Origin: Thermoflexus hugenholtzii
Lineage (GTDB): Bacteria; Chloroflexota; Anaerolineae; Thermoflexales; Thermoflexaceae
Assembly: GCF_018771565.1 (NCBI RefSeq)
Contig: NZ_CP076326.1
Location: 1,860,001-1,924,000 of the forward strand
Length of the DNA stretch: 64,000 nt
Direction: 5' to 3'
Under the pieces are notes generated by a model. That model saw only the letters and a list, made by a program, of their open reading frames with translations, made no database searches and was not told the origin of the DNA. Below, one piece after another: positions 13,129 to 20,105 of this stretch. The stretch's first letter is position 1; every line of letters begins with the position of its first letter. The position numbers were made by a program, and so were the translations under genes.

Positions 13129-14301
13129 ATGCTGCGGAGAGGCAGAATCGGGGCATGGCTGGGGCTGCTCCTCGTCGGGCTTCTGAGCGGGATCGGATGG
13201 CTCCGCTGGGCGAAGATCCCCGGGCTCCTGTTCGCCCTCTGGCTCCTCGCGATGATCCTCTATGGGGTCTTCCTTTTCTTCTTCCTCCTCCCTGCCTTAG
13301 CTCCCACTGCGCCGCACGAGGCCGGCCTTGTGCGACGGGCGTTCGCCGCGTGGATCTTCGGCCGGCTGCGCAGCCTGGGGGTGGTGGACGCGGGCCAGCC
13401 GCGCGCTTCTACGGAGCCCCTGCAGGGGCCCGGGCTCTGGCTGATGGACGCCCGGAGCGCCCTGGCCGTGGAGGGAGAAGCCGGGTTCCTCCGCATCGCC
13501 GGCCCCGGGCTGACGTGGGTGCAAAAGGAGGAGCAGATCACCGCCTTCGTGGATCTCCGCCCTCAGCGCTACCCGCGGAGCGAACCGGAGCCGGTGACGG
13601 TCCGCACCCAGGATGGGCTCTCCCTCGGATTCCAGATCCGCACCGTCGCCTCCTTCGCCGCCCAGCGTCTCCCTCCCGTCGAGCGGGGATTGTCCCCGTA
13701 TTTCTACCCGGCCCCGCGCGTCGCCCGGTCCATCGCCCAGGCCCTCCGGGCCGCTCGCGTCGATGAGGATCGGACGCTCCACTGGTTCGAGCTGGCCTAC
13801 CACCGGGCCCGGGAGGAGCTCGCCCTCCGGATCGGCAACCGCCTCTTCGACGAGCTGTTCGGGCTGGCTCGGGAAGGGGAGGAGCGGCCGGGTCCACCCC
13901 TCGTCCGGCTGGCGCAGGAGATCCAGGGGGCGCTGGCCCCGGAGCTGAGCCGGGCCGGGATCCGGCCGGACCGGCTGCATCTCGCCCTGGCAGAGGTGCC
14001 TGAGGAAGCCCGACGCCAGCGGGTGGAGGTCTGGCGCAGCCAGTGGGCCGCCCGGCTGGCCCGCTGGATCGGCCTGGCGGAATCCGAGCTGCTGCTGGAA
14101 TACGCCCGCGCCCGTCATGCCGCCCAGATGGAGACCCTCCAGGCCCTCCGGGAGGTGCTGAGCGGCCGCGACGCCCTCTCCCCCGATCTCATCCTCCTGC
14201 ACTTCCTGGAGACGCTGGACGCGGCGGTCCGCAAGAGCGGGTTGCTGCTGCCGGAGGAACTGAACCGCCTCCGCACATATCTGCAAGGAGGGAGCCCGTG
14301 A
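13129..14301 (+). CDS. Two-helix membrane protein with SPFH/band-7-like domain (protein 1)
   Basis: A 390-aa protein. Residues 1-60 hold two hydrophobic segments (about 8-26 and 30-55). The cytoplasmic part shows stomatin/prohibitin-like patterns: a GPG-x-x-LMDARSALAVEGEAGFLRIAGPG pair of glycine turns, VDLRPQRYPRSEPEPVTVRTQDGLSLGFQIRTV (band-7 proteins have DLR-PQ and T-x-DG at these points), then a long charged helical tail (EEARRQRVEVWRSQWAARLARW) that could be a coiled coil. The start ATG at 13129 follows AGGGGAGG; the longer frame upstream has no SD. First gene of a tightly overlapping operon. A precise function is not known. Confidence 0.7.
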   Translation: MLRRGRIGAWLGLLLVGLLSGIGWLRWAKIPGLLFALWLLAMILYGVFLFFFLLPALAPTAPHEAGLVRRAFAAWIFGRLRSLGVVDAGQPRASTEPLQGPGLWLMDARSALAVEGEAGFLRIAGPGLTWVQKEEQITAFVDLRPQRYPRSEPEPVTVRTQDGLSLGFQIRTVASFAAQRLPPVERGLSPYFYPAPRVARSIAQALRAARVDEDRTLHWFELAYHRAREELALRIGNRLFDELFGLAREGEERPGPPLVRLAQEIQGALAPELSRAGIRPDRLHLALAEVPEEARRQRVEVWRSQWAARLARWIGLAESELLLEYARARHAAQMETLQALREVLSGRDALSPDLILLHFLETLDAAVRKSGLLLPEELNRLRTYLQGGSP

Positions 14302-15674
14302 GAGCGCGGATGGAGTTCCTCCTTCGGGTGGCCATCCCCTTCGCCGCCGGCCTGCCCGGCCTGGTGCTGGTCCCTCTCCTGATCGGCGCATGGTGGGGGG
14401 AGCGGATCGGGGAGATCTTGAGGCTCGGCTGCGGACTGGGCTTTCTGATGGAAGGAGCGATCGCCGCCTTCATGCTGGTTCAGGCCTCCACCTTCGTCGC
14501 GCGGATGTATCGGGTCCGCTGGGGCCAGGCCGTCGGCTTCCTCCTGCGGGCCCTGTTCTTCCCCCATGCGCGAACCCCGGTGGGCCACGCGCGGGACGGA
14601 GATCTCACCGCGACGACCCGCACGTCCCCCCTGGTCCGGATCGGCGGCCCGGGCACCCTGGTCGTGCACGAGAGCTGTCTGGTCCTGCTGGAGCGAGGCG
14701 GCGCCTTCGTCCGGCTGATCGGGCCGGGGGAGCATCGCCTGAGGCCCTTCGAACGCCCGGCCCTGGTCCTGGATCTTCGTCCTCAGATTCGCCGCCGGCA
14801 GGTGAACGCATGGACCCAGGATGGGCTGCCGGTGCAGGCGCGGCTGGAGCTCGGCGCGCAGCTGCGCTGGGAGCCCGGGGACGCGACCGGGGAGGCCCGG
14901 TTGATCCGCATGGCCTACGCCCTGGACACCGGCTCCCGGGACCGGGGCTATGGCGTGGACTGGGCCGGCGAGCTGGCCGATGAGGCCCGGAACCGCCTGG
15001 CCCGCCGGCTGGGAGCCCTGTGGTTCGATGAGATGTGGTCCCCTTACACCAGCCTGGAGGAGGCCCGGGCCCAGCCGCCCCGCTTCGCCGGGGAGCCGGC
15101 CGAGCCGCCCCACACCAGGGGGATCCCGGAGCGCCCCCCGGAGGACGCGCCGACCCCCGTGCGCTGGGAGCAGATCCGAGCGGCAATTCGCGCCGAGCTG
15201 GAGGAGCAGGCGGCGCAGTGGAACGCGCAGATCCTGCACTTCGCCTTCACCCCGCCCATGCCCCGGCCGGAGGTGGAGCCGTTGATCCGGCAGGCGTGGC
15301 TGGAGCACTGGCAGGTGCCCTGGCGGGGATGGGTGGTGCATATGCAATCCCGGGCCGTGCGGGAGCAGCTGCGCCAGCGGGAGCTGGCCCGGGCCATGGG
15401 CCAGCGGGAGCTGCTCGAGGCCATCACCGCGGTGGTCCGGGAGGAGTGGTCCGCGGCGGACCCCCAGCGGGGGCTCCACCGCCTGCTCCTGCGGCTGGTG
15501 GAGCTGGTGCAGCACTGGGCCCAGCCGGAGGCGGCCCTGCTGACCCCGAAGGAGCTGCTGGAGCTGTTCCATCACCTGCGGCGGATCCTGCAAAGCCCCC
15601 AGGGCGACACAGGAGGCGCGTCCGGTGGAGCGGGAGCGTCGCCTTCTTTCCCATCTGATTCGGACCCTGGATGA
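14298..15674 (+). CDS. Two-helix membrane protein with SPFH/band-7-like domain (protein 2)
   Basis: A 458-aa partner of the preceding protein. Hydrophobic segments lie at about 9-34 and 44-67. The band-7-like core reads VRIGGPGTLVVHESCLVLLERGG, RLIGPGEHRLRPFERPALVLDLRPQ, then NAWTQDGLPVQARLELGAQLRW, which is a clearer match to the SPFH pattern than protein 1. A Pro-rich loop (about 260-295) separates it from a long helical region (IRAELEEQAAQWNAQILHF, RQRELARAMGQRELLEAI). GTG is the start: it overlaps the upstream TGA (GTGA) and has SD AAGGAGGGA. The 3' end overlaps the S24 gene by 50 bases. Confidence 0.72.
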   Translation: MRARMEFLLRVAIPFAAGLPGLVLVPLLIGAWWGERIGEILRLGCGLGFLMEGAIAAFMLVQASTFVARMYRVRWGQAVGFLLRALFFPHARTPVGHARDGDLTATTRTSPLVRIGGPGTLVVHESCLVLLERGGAFVRLIGPGEHRLRPFERPALVLDLRPQIRRRQVNAWTQDGLPVQARLELGAQLRWEPGDATGEARLIRMAYALDTGSRDRGYGVDWAGELADEARNRLARRLGALWFDEMWSPYTSLEEARAQPPRFAGEPAEPPHTRGIPERPPEDAPTPVRWEQIRAAIRAELEEQAAQWNAQILHFAFTPPMPRPEVEPLIRQAWLEHWQVPWRGWVVHMQSRAVREQLRQRELARAMGQRELLEAITAVVREEWSAADPQRGLHRLLLRLVELVQHWAQPEAALLTPKELLELFHHLRRILQSPQGDTGGASGGAGASPSFPSDSDPG

Positions 15675-16764
15675 AGGCCGGCATCCGGCCCTGCAAGCGC
15701 TCCGGGCGCTGCTGGATCAGGATCCGCCGGATCCGGAGCGGCTGCGCACCCTCGGCCATCTCCTGATGCTCCTGCCGGCGGATCCCCTGGCCGGGCCGGG
15801 GGAGGCCATGCCCGGTCGGATCGGGGCCCAACTGGTCGGGATGGCCCTGGACCGATGGGCGGGTTATCTGCCCCCGGGCGCCCTGCGGCAGCCCCTGACG
15901 GAGATCCTTCGCGCCCTTCGGTTTCACGGCCCGGCCCTGGCGGAGGCGCTCGCGGCGCTGCTGGGGGCCTTCTGGCTGCGCGGAGAGGATCCGGCATGGG
16001 CCCTGGAGATGGCGCGGCGGGCGGAGCAGCTGCTGCAGGACCGGCAGCGGGCGGCCGCGCTTCAGGGCGTGACATCGCCGGAGCTGGCGGAATGGCTCCG
16101 TTGGGCGCAGGAGATCATCGGGGAGATCCTCCGCGACCGACACCTCGCTGCCGCGGAGCCTCCGCGGGAGGAGGCTCCGGAAAGGACGCCGGCCGAGCCC
16201 ATCCCGACGCCGGAAGGCCCGCTCCGGCCCGCCCGCCTGGCCCTGCTCTCCCTCGTCCTGCTCCCGGACACCCACCCTCAAGCGGGGGACCTTCAGTTCC
16301 TGGACCCCCAGACCGCGGAGCGCCTTTCGGATTCGGCGGAGGTTCAGATCGAGCGACTCCGCGTGGGGGAGCAGGTGTATCGGGTGTATGTGGAGGCGGA
16401 CATGGATCGGGTGGTGGTGGCGCGTCGGGAGGAGCTGATCGTGCTTCGGGTGGAGGGGGAGAGCATGCGGGGGGCGGGCATCGAGCCCGGGGACCTGATC
16501 CTGGCGCGGCGGCTCTCAGGGCCGGCGGCGCGGGATCCGAACGAGTGGCGCGCGCTCCTGGGGAGGCTGGTGCTGGCCGTCCTGGTGGAGGATTACCACA
16601 GCCAGGCGCACCGGGCCTTCCTGATCAAGCGGCTGAACTATCGCAACGGGAAATGGTTGCTCTCGCCGGAGAACCCGGCTTTCGAGGAGATCGCCATCGA
16701 GCCCGGCCGCCCGGAGCTCCACCCCGTCCTGGCCATCCTCAAGCCGGAGCCCATCGAAGCGTAA
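15625..16764 (+). CDS. S24/LexA-type Ser-Lys peptidase-domain protein with helical N-terminus
   Basis: A 379-aa protein in two parts. Residues 1-215 are Leu/Ala-rich helices with no recognisable domain and no HTH. Residues about 240-379 match the S24 peptidase fold of LexA and CI-type repressors: VLRVEGESMRGAGIEPGDLIL with the nucleophile Ser280, and AFLIKRLNYRNGKWLLSPENPAF with the base Lys335. Both catalytic residues are kept, so autocleavage or cleavage of a partner is possible. It lacks a membrane segment and a DNA-binding domain, so it is not a classic repressor. GTG start with SD AGGAGG 8 bases upstream, overlapping protein 2, indicates translational coupling. Confidence 0.78.
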   Translation: MERERRLLSHLIRTLDEGRHPALQALRALLDQDPPDPERLRTLGHLLMLLPADPLAGPGEAMPGRIGAQLVGMALDRWAGYLPPGALRQPLTEILRALRFHGPALAEALAALLGAFWLRGEDPAWALEMARRAEQLLQDRQRAAALQGVTSPELAEWLRWAQEIIGEILRDRHLAAAEPPREEAPERTPAEPIPTPEGPLRPARLALLSLVLLPDTHPQAGDLQFLDPQTAERLSDSAEVQIERLRVGEQVYRVYVEADMDRVVVARREELIVLRVEGESMRGAGIEPGDLILARRLSGPAARDPNEWRALLGRLVLAVLVEDYHSQAHRAFLIKRLNYRNGKWLLSPENPAFEEIAIEPGRPELHPVLAILKPEPIEA

Positions 16765-16865: not shown

Positions 16866-19800
16866 ATGATGCCGCAGTCCCTTGACGACCTGACGGCGCG
16901 TTACCGGCGCGCCGTCGCCGAGGAATGGCGATACCTGACGGTCACCGTCCACGGCGAAGAACGCCGCCTGCCGCTGGAGCGCGTCTTCTTCATGCTCCAG
17001 GCGCGGGAGCGGCCCGAACCGAAGCCGACGGAGCCGCCACGCCCCGACCTGGACCCGGCGGGGGCGCGCCTTCAGGACGCCGGCGCGCCCCCGCCTCCCC
17101 AGCCGCCTCCCCCGCCGGTCCCCCTGGAGGCGGCGCTGGCGAAGGGGGAGCACATGGCCCTGCTGGGCGAGCCGGGGGCGGGGAAATCCACCGCCCTGCA
17201 GTTCATCGGGCTGTGCTTCGCCCGCGCCGACGAAAACTGGCACAGGGAGCGGCTGGGGATCCCGCGCCCCTACATCCCGATCCTGCTGAACCTGCAGGCC
17301 CGGGCTTATGCCATCGCCGGGCAGAAGACCCTGTGGGATGCCCTGCGCGCCGAGGTGCGCGAGCGGCTGCAATGCCCCGAGGACGAGGCGGAGGCGCTGC
17401 TGCACGCGTGGAGGCAGGCGCCCGGCCTGCTCGTCCTGCTGGACGGGCTGGACGAGGTGCCGGAGGCGCTGCGGGAGGCTGTGCGGCTGCGGGAGGCCGT
17501 GCGGGAGCGCATCCAGCGCTTCGCTCAGAGCGGGGCCGGATGGGTGATCCTGACCTCCCGCCCGGCCGGGTTCCAGCCCCTGCCGGGGCTGCGCGAATAC
17601 CTCCTCAAGCCGTTCGAGGACCCCGAAGCCGAAGCCCTGCCCTACCTGCGCGGCTGGCTGGCCGCCCTGAAGCCCGAGTGGACGGCCGAGGAGGCCGGGG
17701 CGCGGGCCCGGGAGCTGTTAGAGAGGATGCGGGCCCACCCGGCCCTGCGCCGCCTGCTGGACAACCCCCTCTTGCTGCGCCTGAGCGCCCAGCACTACGC
17801 CCAGGCCGGCGAGATCGCCCGCAGCCGCGCCGACCTCTACCGCCTGTGGGTGGAGGAGGCCTGGGAACGCGCCCGGCGGCGCGGCGCGAAGGAGGAGGAA
17901 AAGCCGCGTTTTCTGGAGGCCCTCCAGGCCCTGGCCTGGCACCTGCACACCGGCGGGGGGAACGAAGAAGCCGACCTGCTGCAGGCGCTGCAAAGGTTCG
18001 GGCCGGCGCAAGATGGAGCGGAGGCCGAAGGCTTGCTGGGCCGCCTGCGGGAGCAGACCGGCCTCCTCGCCCGCCTGTCGGAGGCGGAAGATGGAAAAGC
18101 GCGTCATCGCTACGTCTTCAGCCACCAGACCCTGCGGGAGTATTTCGTCGCCCTGCGCCTGAAGGAGGCCTGGGAGCGGGACGCCCGGCGCGCGTGGCGC
18201 TTCCTGCGGGCCCGCCTGCACCTGCCCGACTGGCGCGAGCCCCTCGCCCTGCTGGTCGGGTCGCTGCCCGAGCCCGAGGCCCTGCGCCTGCTGAAGTGGA
18301 TCTTGCATGCCCGCTCGCCGGAAGAAGGCTTCCTGCGCCGGGACCTGTTCCTGGCCGCCGAACTGGCCGGGGAGAGCGGCCACGCGAAGGCGATGTGGGG
18401 ACGCCTATGGCCCGAGCTGCGCCGGGCGCTTCAGGGTGAGACGTGGGAGGTGCGCGAGGCGGCGGCGGAGGCGCTGGGGCAGATCGGCGACCCCCAGGCC
18501 ATCCCCGCCCTCATCCAGGCGCTCCAGGATGAGGAGTGGTGGGTGCGCGAGGCGGCGGCGAGGGCGCTGGGGCAGATCGGCGACCCCCAGGCCATCCCCG
18601 CCCTCATCCAGGCGCTCCAGGATGAGGAGTGGTGGGTGCGCGAGGCGGCGGCGAGGGCGCTGGGGCAGATCGGCGACCCCCAGGCCATCCCCGCCCTCAT
18701 CCAGGCGCTTCGGGATGAGGAGTGGGTGGTGCGCGAGGCGGCGGCGAGGGCGCTGGGGCAGATCGGCGACCCCCAGGCCACCCCCGCCCTCATCCAGGCC
18801 CTCCAGGATGAGGATTGGCGAGTGCGCGAGGCGGCGGCGGAGGCGCTGGAGAAGATCGGCCCACCCGCCGTTCCCGCCCTCATCCAGGCGCTTCGGGATG
18901 AGAAGTGGGAGATGCGCCAGGCGGCGGCGGGGGCGCTGGGGCAGATCGGCGACCCCCAGGCCACCCCCGCCCTCATCCAGGCCCTCCAGGATGAGGAGGG
19001 GGTGGTGCGCCAGGCGGCGGCGGGGGCGCTGGGGCAGATCGGCGACCCCCAGGCCACCCCCGCCCTCATCCAGGCGCTCCAGGATGAGGAGGGGGTGGTG
19101 CGCCAGGCGGCGGCGGGGGCGCTGGGGCAGATCGGCGACCCCCAGGCCACCCCCGCCCTCATCCAGGCGCTTCGGGATGAGGATCGCGATGTGCGCCAGG
19201 CGGCGGCGGAGGCGCTGGGGCAGATCGGCGACCCCCAGGCCATCCCCGCCCTCATCCAGGCGCTTCGGAATGAGATGTGGTGGGTGCGCCTGGCAGCAGC
19301 GGAGGCGCTGGGACAGATCGGCGACCCCCAGGCCACCCCCGCCCTCATCCAGGCGCTTCGGGATGAGGATCGCGATGTGCGCCAGGCGGCGGCGAAGGCG
19401 CTGGAGAAGATCGGCCCACCCGCCGTCCCCGCCCTCATCCAGGCGCTTCGGGATCAGGATGTGGGGGTGCGCGAGGCGGCGGCGAAGGCGCTGGAGAAGA
19501 TCGGCCCACCCGCCGTCCCCGCCCTCATCCAGGCGCTTCGGGATCAGGATGTGGGGGTGCGCGAGGCGGCGGCGAAGGCGCTGGAGAAGATCGGCGACCC
19601 CCAGGCCACCCCCGCCCTCATCCAGGCCCTCCAGGATGAGGATTGGGGAGTGCGCCAGGCGGCGGCGTGGGCGCTGTTGAAACTCCCACCCGTCTCGCCG
19701 CCTCAGAACGAGCAAGAACGCCGCGCCTGGCAAAAGCGCCTAACTTCCATCCGGCGAGCGGCGCGGCGGGCGAAAGAATACGAGCTGCTTGCCGCCGTCC

Positions 19801-20105
19801 TGGAGCGGCAGGCGGCATGGGAGGCGGCCCTTTCGCCCTGGCAGGACCCGCTGCAGCCGCCCCCCGTCCCGGCCTGGCGGGCCTGGGCCCGGCGGGCCGG
19901 CGGGGGCGCGCTGGCCCTGCTCATCGCCGGCCTGGTGGCGCTGGCAATGGCGGTGCTCTCCGGGATCGGCGAACCGCTGTCGGAGGCCGTCCGCGCCTTC
20001 ATTCAGGAGCAGCCCCTCTGGGCGGCGGCGTTGCTGATCATCATTCTGGGCGCGGCGGTCGCGCTGCTGGACTGGATCAGGGAGGCCTTGCGGAAAAAGA
20101 CGTAG
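16866..20105 (+). CDS. NACHT NTPase with 14 HEAT repeats and two C-terminal membrane helices
   Basis: A 1079-aa STAND-type ATPase. After a short N-terminus (1-50) and a Pro-rich linker (72-86) comes a NACHT module: Walker A GEPGAGKS (101-108), Walker B LLVLLDGLDE (188-197), the sensor region TSRPAG (230-235), then winged-helix-like segments (DNPLLLRLSAQHYA, FSHQTLREYFVALRLKEAW). Residues 521 to about 941 are 14 HEAT/PBS-lyase units of 30-31 aa, almost identical to each other. Two hydrophobic segments close the protein (about 1013-1035 and 1050-1071). Such NACHT-repeat proteins act as immune or stress sensors in bacteria; here the likely output is the membrane pair, since there is no N-terminal effector domain. 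It follows the S24 gene by 101 bases. Role is inferred. Confidence 0.85.
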   Translation: MMPQSLDDLTARYRRAVAEEWRYLTVTVHGEERRLPLERVFFMLQARERPEPKPTEPPRPDLDPAGARLQDAGAPPPPQPPPPPVPLEAALAKGEHMALLGEPGAGKSTALQFIGLCFARADENWHRERLGIPRPYIPILLNLQARAYAIAGQKTLWDALRAEVRERLQCPEDEAEALLHAWRQAPGLLVLLDGLDEVPEALREAVRLREAVRERIQRFAQSGAGWVILTSRPAGFQPLPGLREYLLKPFEDPEAEALPYLRGWLAALKPEWTAEEAGARARELLERMRAHPALRRLLDNPLLLRLSAQHYAQAGEIARSRADLYRLWVEEAWERARRRGAKEEEKPRFLEALQALAWHLHTGGGNEEADLLQALQRFGPAQDGAEAEGLLGRLREQTGLLARLSEAEDGKARHRYVFSHQTLREYFVALRLKEAWERDARRAWRFLRARLHLPDWREPLALLVGSLPEPEALRLLKWILHARSPEEGFLRRDLFLAAELAGESGHAKAMWGRLWPELRRALQGETWEVREAAAEALGQIGDPQAIPALIQALQDEEWWVREAAARALGQIGDPQAIPALIQALQDEEWWVREAAARALGQIGDPQAIPALIQALRDEEWVVREAAARALGQIGDPQATPALIQALQDEDWRVREAAAEALEKIGPPAVPALIQALRDEKWEMRQAAAGALGQIGDPQATPALIQALQDEEGVVRQAAAGALGQIGDPQATPALIQALQDEEGVVRQAAAGALGQIGDPQATPALIQALRDEDRDVRQAAAEALGQIGDPQAIPALIQALRNEMWWVRLAAAEALGQIGDPQATPALIQALRDEDRDVRQAAAKALEKIGPPAVPALIQALRDQDVGVREAAAKALEKIGPPAVPALIQALRDQDVGVREAAAKALEKIGDPQATPALIQALQDEDWGVRQAAAWALLKLPPVSPPQNEQERRAWQKRLTSIRRAARRAKEYELLAAVLERQAAWEAALSPWQDPLQPPPVPAWRAWARRAGGGALALLIAGLVALAMAVLSGIGEPLSEAVRAFIQEQPLWAAALLIIILGAAVALLDWIREALRKKT
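18426..19688 (+). repeat. In-gene tandem array of 14 HEAT-coding units (93 or 90 bp)
   Basis: Unit consensus at protein level is AL-x-DE-x-x-x-VR-x-AAA-x-ALGQIG then DPQATPALIQ. Ten of the first 13 units are 31 codons; three (the 5th, 11th and 12th) have the shorter linker PPAVPALIQ and are 30 codons. The 14th is truncated after WALLKLP. Nucleotide identity between units is very high; for example units 2 and 3, units 7 and 8, and units 12 and 13 are nearly the same. The array produces long periodic antisense ORFs that are not genes. Confidence 0.93.

Follow-up and report, generated by a model that had tools for sequence, protein, structure and literature searches.

To our knowledge, what most bacterial SPFH proteins do biochemically is unclear, and the proteases known to partner them belong to the ClpP/NfeD or FtsH types. 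The described operon partners are NfeD proteins, part of which contain a serine protease domain of the ClpP type, and FtsH is the partner of HflK/C (PMC2636767, PMC13086221); the ClpP-class NfeD protease PH1510 cuts the stomatin PH1511 (PMC13086221, PMC3795559). Members of the LexA family cut their own chain between an alanine and a glycine located ahead of the catalytic core (PMC7101444). Here, we describe a trio of overlapping genes encoding two divergent SPFH proteins and a LexA-type S24 protein, in the order SPFH1, SPFH2, TPR-S24, at positions 13129-16764 (+ strand) of a 64,000-nucleotide window (the whole stretch of DNA analyzed) from the complete 3.3-Mb chromosome of a heat-loving Thermoflexus (Chloroflexota).

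The stomatin/NfeD (STOPP) operons (PH1511/PH1510, YbbK/YbbJ, YuaG/YuaF) resemble this locus in combining an SPFH gene with a partner, the long NfeD carrying a ClpP-class serine protease domain. The Thermoflexus partner, however, is a soluble S24 protein (LexA fold, Ser-Lys dyad) with a TPR-like domain, the SPFH genes form a divergent tandem pair, and no NfeD or ClpP domain was found in the trio in Pfam and NCBIfam scans. The HflK/HflC system associated with FtsH is alike in having a tandem pair of different SPFH proteins tied to a protease, but HflK and HflC possess a single transmembrane segment whereas SPFH1 and SPFH2 each display two N-terminal hydrophobic segments and are predicted to be cytoplasmic; moreover, the locus has no FtsH and the partner is of the LexA type rather than an AAA metalloprotease. 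With LexA, CI, UmuD and IrvR, the third protein shares the S24 fold, the Ser-Lys dyad and a predicted Ala-Gly site that separates the catalytic domain from a functional domain at the N-terminus. It differs from them in that the N-terminal domain is TPR-like (or SPFH) and not HTH, that an extra hairpin lies between the site and the serine, and that the partner is a membrane scaffold gene rather than DNA. LexA and S24 go unmentioned as partners in a survey of prokaryotic SPFH families published in 2009 (PMC2636767), and no SPFH-S24 module was found in the literature searched, which comprised open papers only. SPFH and S24 are both known families, and it is their combination and predicted use that are undescribed in that literature.

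The assignment of the third protein to the S24 peptidases rests on several lines of evidence. It matches Pfam Peptidase_S24 (PF00717; E = 8.5e-9, 35.6 bits for a cut-off of 23.3), as do 10/10 relatives, and a profile search of the PDB aligned it with LexA, Ser280 and Lys335 falling on the LexA serine and lysine. The AlphaFold2 model, with a mean predicted local distance difference test (pLDDT) score of 64, comprises eight helices (residues 2-176) joined by a loose linker to a beta domain, which Foldseek equated with the C-domains of LexA and lambda CI (probability 1.00). VIA-align matched the modelled helices to TPR domains with Z-scores of 10-12 (up to 12.2), a range in which helical repeats may match by shape only; Pfam TPR profiles gave no match in the window protein and matched several of its relatives. 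No HTH or other DNA-binding domain was found in the protein, the model placing a TPR-like solenoid at the N-terminus instead. The initial annotation had described an S24-type Ser280/Lys335 protein devoid of a DNA-binding domain, which our results uphold, the TPR-like domain and the Ala220-Gly221 site having escaped it. Because the genome harbors two ordinary HTH-LexA genes elsewhere, the S24 protein of the trio is not the host LexA or SOS repressor; it scores 20.4 bits against the lexA equivalog model, whose cut-off is 110.95.

The two upstream proteins were initially taken for two-helix, band-7-like membrane proteins, and indeed both carry two hydrophobic N-terminal segments, the S24 protein having none. 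Against Pfam Band_7, SPFH2 of the window scores 23.6 bits, exactly the cut-off, and its relatives match by profile with E-values down to 5.5e-21. SPFH1 of the window lies below the Pfam cut-off (E = 0.099), and 8/10 aligned members of its family match (best 2.7e-12). Both proteins match clearly in their more typical relatives, and the proposed SPFH resemblance is supported by family profiles. Neither matched an HflK/HflC subfamily profile in NCBIfam. The role in membrane microdomains suggested by the initial annotation is presumed from membership of the SPFH family; of the features expected of an oligomeric ring at a membrane, the N-terminal hydrophobic segments are those observed.

Ala220-Gly221 is the predicted LexA-type self-cleavage site. 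It aligns with the site motifs of the relatives, many of which are LexA-like (LPVFGRIPAGNP, IPIMEAELAAGEP, LPLFDAIAAGKE) and lie ~54-61 residues ahead of the serine. The alanine at P1 is present in 26/26 dyad-bearing copies, and P1' is a glycine in 23 of them, a serine in two (L142, L176) and a phenylalanine in one (L092). The catalytic serine and lysine are invariant in these copies wherever covered, one contig stopping before the lysine, at sequence identities of 19-27%. The ratio of nonsynonymous to synonymous substitutions (dN/dS) was 0.26-0.45 between two Thermoflexus genomes. Another candidate, V247-G248, was rejected, as Gly248 sits in a hairpin also found in relatives without the dyad.

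We examined the distribution of the module within Chloroflexota, in samples of 298 genomes for the class Anaerolineae and 301 genomes for the phylum; only the best first-pass candidates were scored and the counts are hence lower bounds. SPFH2 relatives occur in eight of the nine Thermoflexus genomes searched, and the trio is intact in each of these whose contig reaches the third gene (that of G006 stops before it). Ser280, Lys335, Ala220 and Gly221 are invariant across the Thermoflexus copies wherever covered, the G002 contig ending after Ser280. The trio occupies two unrelated chromosomal contexts: in three Thermoflexus genomes it adjoins rbfA/nrnA, and in the remaining ones it is flanked by the gene of a large membrane protein on one side and a 610-residue gene on the other. 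A profile restricted to Thermoflexus retrieved the genus and one further genome, as if S24 were a lineage-specific gain. This view was overturned by a broader profile including the fusions described below and LexA, which revealed intact-dyad S24 domains in other families, and a combined TPR-S24 profile detected more. Tandem SPFH pairs resembling SPFH1-SPFH2 are found in many Anaerolineae families, usually followed by a gene encoding a TPR-like protein of 300-400 residues. In the class sample, at least 26 S24 genes or fusions bear the dyad, distributed in eight families, and 23 of the 26 either immediately follow SPFH genes on the same strand or are fused to them; some of these dyad-bearing loci (L229-L235) have one SPFH gene instead of two. 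Among the exceptions, the copy of G070 (L185) is convergent with an SPFH gene. That of G051 had been considered as a partnerless copy, which was rejected since 52 residues of SPFH2 remain upstream, beside a transposase-like frame. The last one, whose contig shows no SPFH gene in the part that was read, is an 859-residue protein of G065 (L234:5475-8054, -) combining an AAA/STAND-like nucleoside triphosphatase (NTPase) domain, TPR repeats and S24, with a VPIIGTTAAGEP site and intact Ser-Lys; it is a putative further LexA-type self-cleaving architecture without HTH. In the sampled genomes, the TPR-S24 gene is therefore not widespread without SPFH partners. The initial annotation had named two outcomes as fatal to its proposal, wide occurrence of the S24 gene without these partners and a lack of profile support for the SPFH resemblance, and neither was observed. 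Outside the class, no full-length TPR-S24 was matched in the phylum sample, where the matches cover the S24 domain only, mostly in frames of ~220 residues, as in LexA.

In three genomes of one family (G230, G268, G220), S24 is found as a C-terminal fusion to SPFH2. The G230 and G268 fusions have kept IAAG, Ser and Lys. That of G220 has lost all three together, through deletion of the IAAG stretch and replacement of Ser by Gly and of Lys by Arg. In third proteins without the dyad, the C-terminal domain aligns with S24 along its length (hhalign 96%, E = 2.3e-9), and L087 represents an intermediate with Ser replaced by Gly. Only the helical part of such a protein is resolved in its predicted structure and, because the C-terminal half is modelled at pLDDT <50, this S24 kinship rests on profile comparison. 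Along a tree of SPFH2, the dyad has changed four times or more, and in nearly all pairings the site goes with it. These data refine the initial reading in three respects: the module extends beyond the lineage of the window, it often degenerates to a pseudo-protease, and its S24 protein is also TPR-like.

The operon and fusion evidence provides good support for a predicted physical linkage between SPFH and TPR-S24, and from the dyad, the fold, the site and their joint loss we infer that TPR-S24 cleaves itself, docking on the cytoplasmic side of the SPFH assembly being likewise conjectural. We consider somewhat probable that a membrane SPFH assembly holds a LexA-type self-cleaving TPR adaptor. 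SPFH1 and SPFH2 would form a two-subunit assembly, anchored in the membrane by their N-terminal hairpins and facing the cytoplasm, on which the soluble adaptor, made of the TPR-like solenoid and the LexA-type S24 domain, would dock. When the SPFH assembly or the TPR domain senses a signal, or through crowding on the ring of SPFH proteins, the S24 domain would cut its own chain at Ala220/Gly221 using Ser280/Lys335. The cut would part the TPR portion (~24 kDa) from the S24 portion (~17 kDa) and reset the assembly, and in the lineages with SPFH2-S24 fusions the same cut would release the S24 domain from the SPFH assembly. The LexA-like cleavage switch that the initial annotation had put forward is strengthened by the site motif, by the three fusions and by the joint loss of site and dyad in G220.

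Several observations weigh against this self-cleaving adaptor. Many Anaerolineae lineages keep the operon with both dyad and site lost, and therefore proteolysis is not the only function of the module. The site context in the window (LPDTHPQAGD) is less canonical than that of the relatives and, because the extra hairpin lies in between, the site is ~25 residues farther from the serine than the 35 residues of LexA. The pLDDT in the S24 domain is modest, mostly 30-70, and the genomes beyond that of the window are mostly metagenome-assembled genomes. Site and dyad covary on few branches, with 2-4 independent pairs for which a sign test cannot reach significance; a Fisher test of the same association (p ~1e-9) ignores kinship and was not relied on. 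The many Anaerolineae in which the operon persists although its S24 domain is dead or heavily altered would be expected if S24 served mainly for binding and dimerization in a TPR adaptor of the SPFH assembly, catalysis being an ancestral remnant under weak selection. We nevertheless hold this explanation to be rather unlikely, given the conservation of the P1 alanine, the serine and the lysine wherever covered, in Thermoflexus and six other families and down to the low identities reported above.

The S24 protein could also act in trans, on the C-termini of the SPFH proteins or on a client gathered by them, self-cleavage being incidental. LexA-family domains can cut in trans. The cleavage of PH1511 by PH1510 is a precedent in which a protease acts on the SPFH protein encoded in its own operon (PMC13086221, PMC3795559). 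In the S24 protein itself, the member of the trio that was examined for such sites, a LexA-type site is, however, conserved along with the dyad, and the G220 fusion, which has lost the dyad, lacks it through deletion, so that we regard trans-cutting as unlikely. In a device linked to the SOS response, RecA filaments would trigger the cleavage of TPR-S24 and the membrane would be altered during DNA damage. LexA-family cleavage is usually stimulated by RecA (PMC7101444), and in G160 an HTH-LexA gene (L151:3410-4051, +) precedes, by ~500 bp, an SPFH-SPFH-TPR operon in which the third protein has no dyad. No DNA-repair gene was, however, encountered among the conserved neighbors of the SPFH operons, and RecA may but need not be involved, the LexA-like protein IrvR being RecA-independent (PMC7101444); a connection to the SOS response appears quite improbable. 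Chance adjacency of unrelated genes, in favor of which nothing was found, is already contradicted by the 23/26 co-directional or fused copies in several families and contexts, by the fusions in three assemblies and by the retention of the gene overlap, and is given almost no credence. The broader proposal that these operons constitute a new class of membrane-scaffold switch, in which LexA-type self-cleavage would free a TPR adaptor or an SPFH2-fused S24 domain from an SPFH assembly rather than a repressor from DNA, and which would occur widely in Anaerolineae and have decayed repeatedly to pseudo-protease forms, stands in our eyes at an even chance.

The features of the locus are collected in Table 1. 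The open reading frames were confirmed as initially annotated, with overlaps of 4 nucleotides between SPFH1 and SPFH2 (GTGA at 14298, shared with the SPFH1 stop) and of 50 nucleotides between SPFH2 and the S24 gene, the latter identical in five other Thermoflexus genomes. For SPFH2, GTG 14298 is the most likely start codon, with ATG 14310 as a possible alternative. A promoter and terminator scan gave nothing useful.

Table 1. Coordinates of the SPFH1-SPFH2-TPR-S24 genes and of the main elements of the S24 protein in the window
Feature	Position	Strand	Description
SPFH1	13129..14301	+	390 aa; two N-terminal hydrophobic segments (~residues 7-25, 27-62); divergent SPFH/Band_7 domain; helical C-terminus
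SPFH2	14298..15674	+	458 aa from GTG 14298; two N-terminal hydrophobic segments; SPFH/Band_7 domain
TPR-S24 protein	15625..16764	+	379 aa; no transmembrane segment, no HTH
TPR-like helical solenoid, residues 1-176 of the S24 protein	15625..16152	+	AlphaFold2 model; VIA-align; TPR Pfam matches in relatives
LexA-type S24 domain, residues 206-379 (cleavage loop, extra beta hairpin, catalytic core)	16240..16764	+	Profiles and model
Ala220-Gly221, predicted self-cleavage site	16282..16287	+	60 residues N-terminal of Ser280
Ser280 codon AGC, nucleophile	16462..16464	+	Aligned with E. coli LexA Ser119
Lys335 codon AAG, general base	16627..16629	+	Aligned with E. coli LexA Lys156

A NACHT NTPase gene (window 16866-20105) begins 101 bp past the trio and encodes ~13 near-identical HEAT repeats and C-terminal hydrophobic segments. 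It was rejected as a fourth operon member, being absent in the other genomic context; because it adjoins the trio in only two species, it is probably an independent gene, possibly involved in defence. Elsewhere in the class, four genomes of one family (L156, L174, L175, L176) have two tandem SPFH pairs with a TPR-S24 gene between them, the site and Ser context being altered in L156. In G216, a 1189-residue protein with an SPFH domain and an additional region (L229:1182-4751, -) is encoded directly upstream of the TPR-S24 gene. In many Anaerolineae (L104, L106, L083, L140, L144, L147-L155 and other loci), the SPFH operon is followed by PfkB-type, psuG-like (pseudouridine breakdown) and dolichol-kinase-like genes.

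If the proposed mechanism is true, SPFH scaffolds would be coupled, through a self-cleaving partner of the LexA type, to a signal that is irreversible and one-shot, and the LexA family would extend past DNA-linked repressors and UmuD. The fused and unfused, intact and dead versions would then constitute natural experiments, and the module may be an undescribed membrane switch made of parts known from the DNA-damage response.

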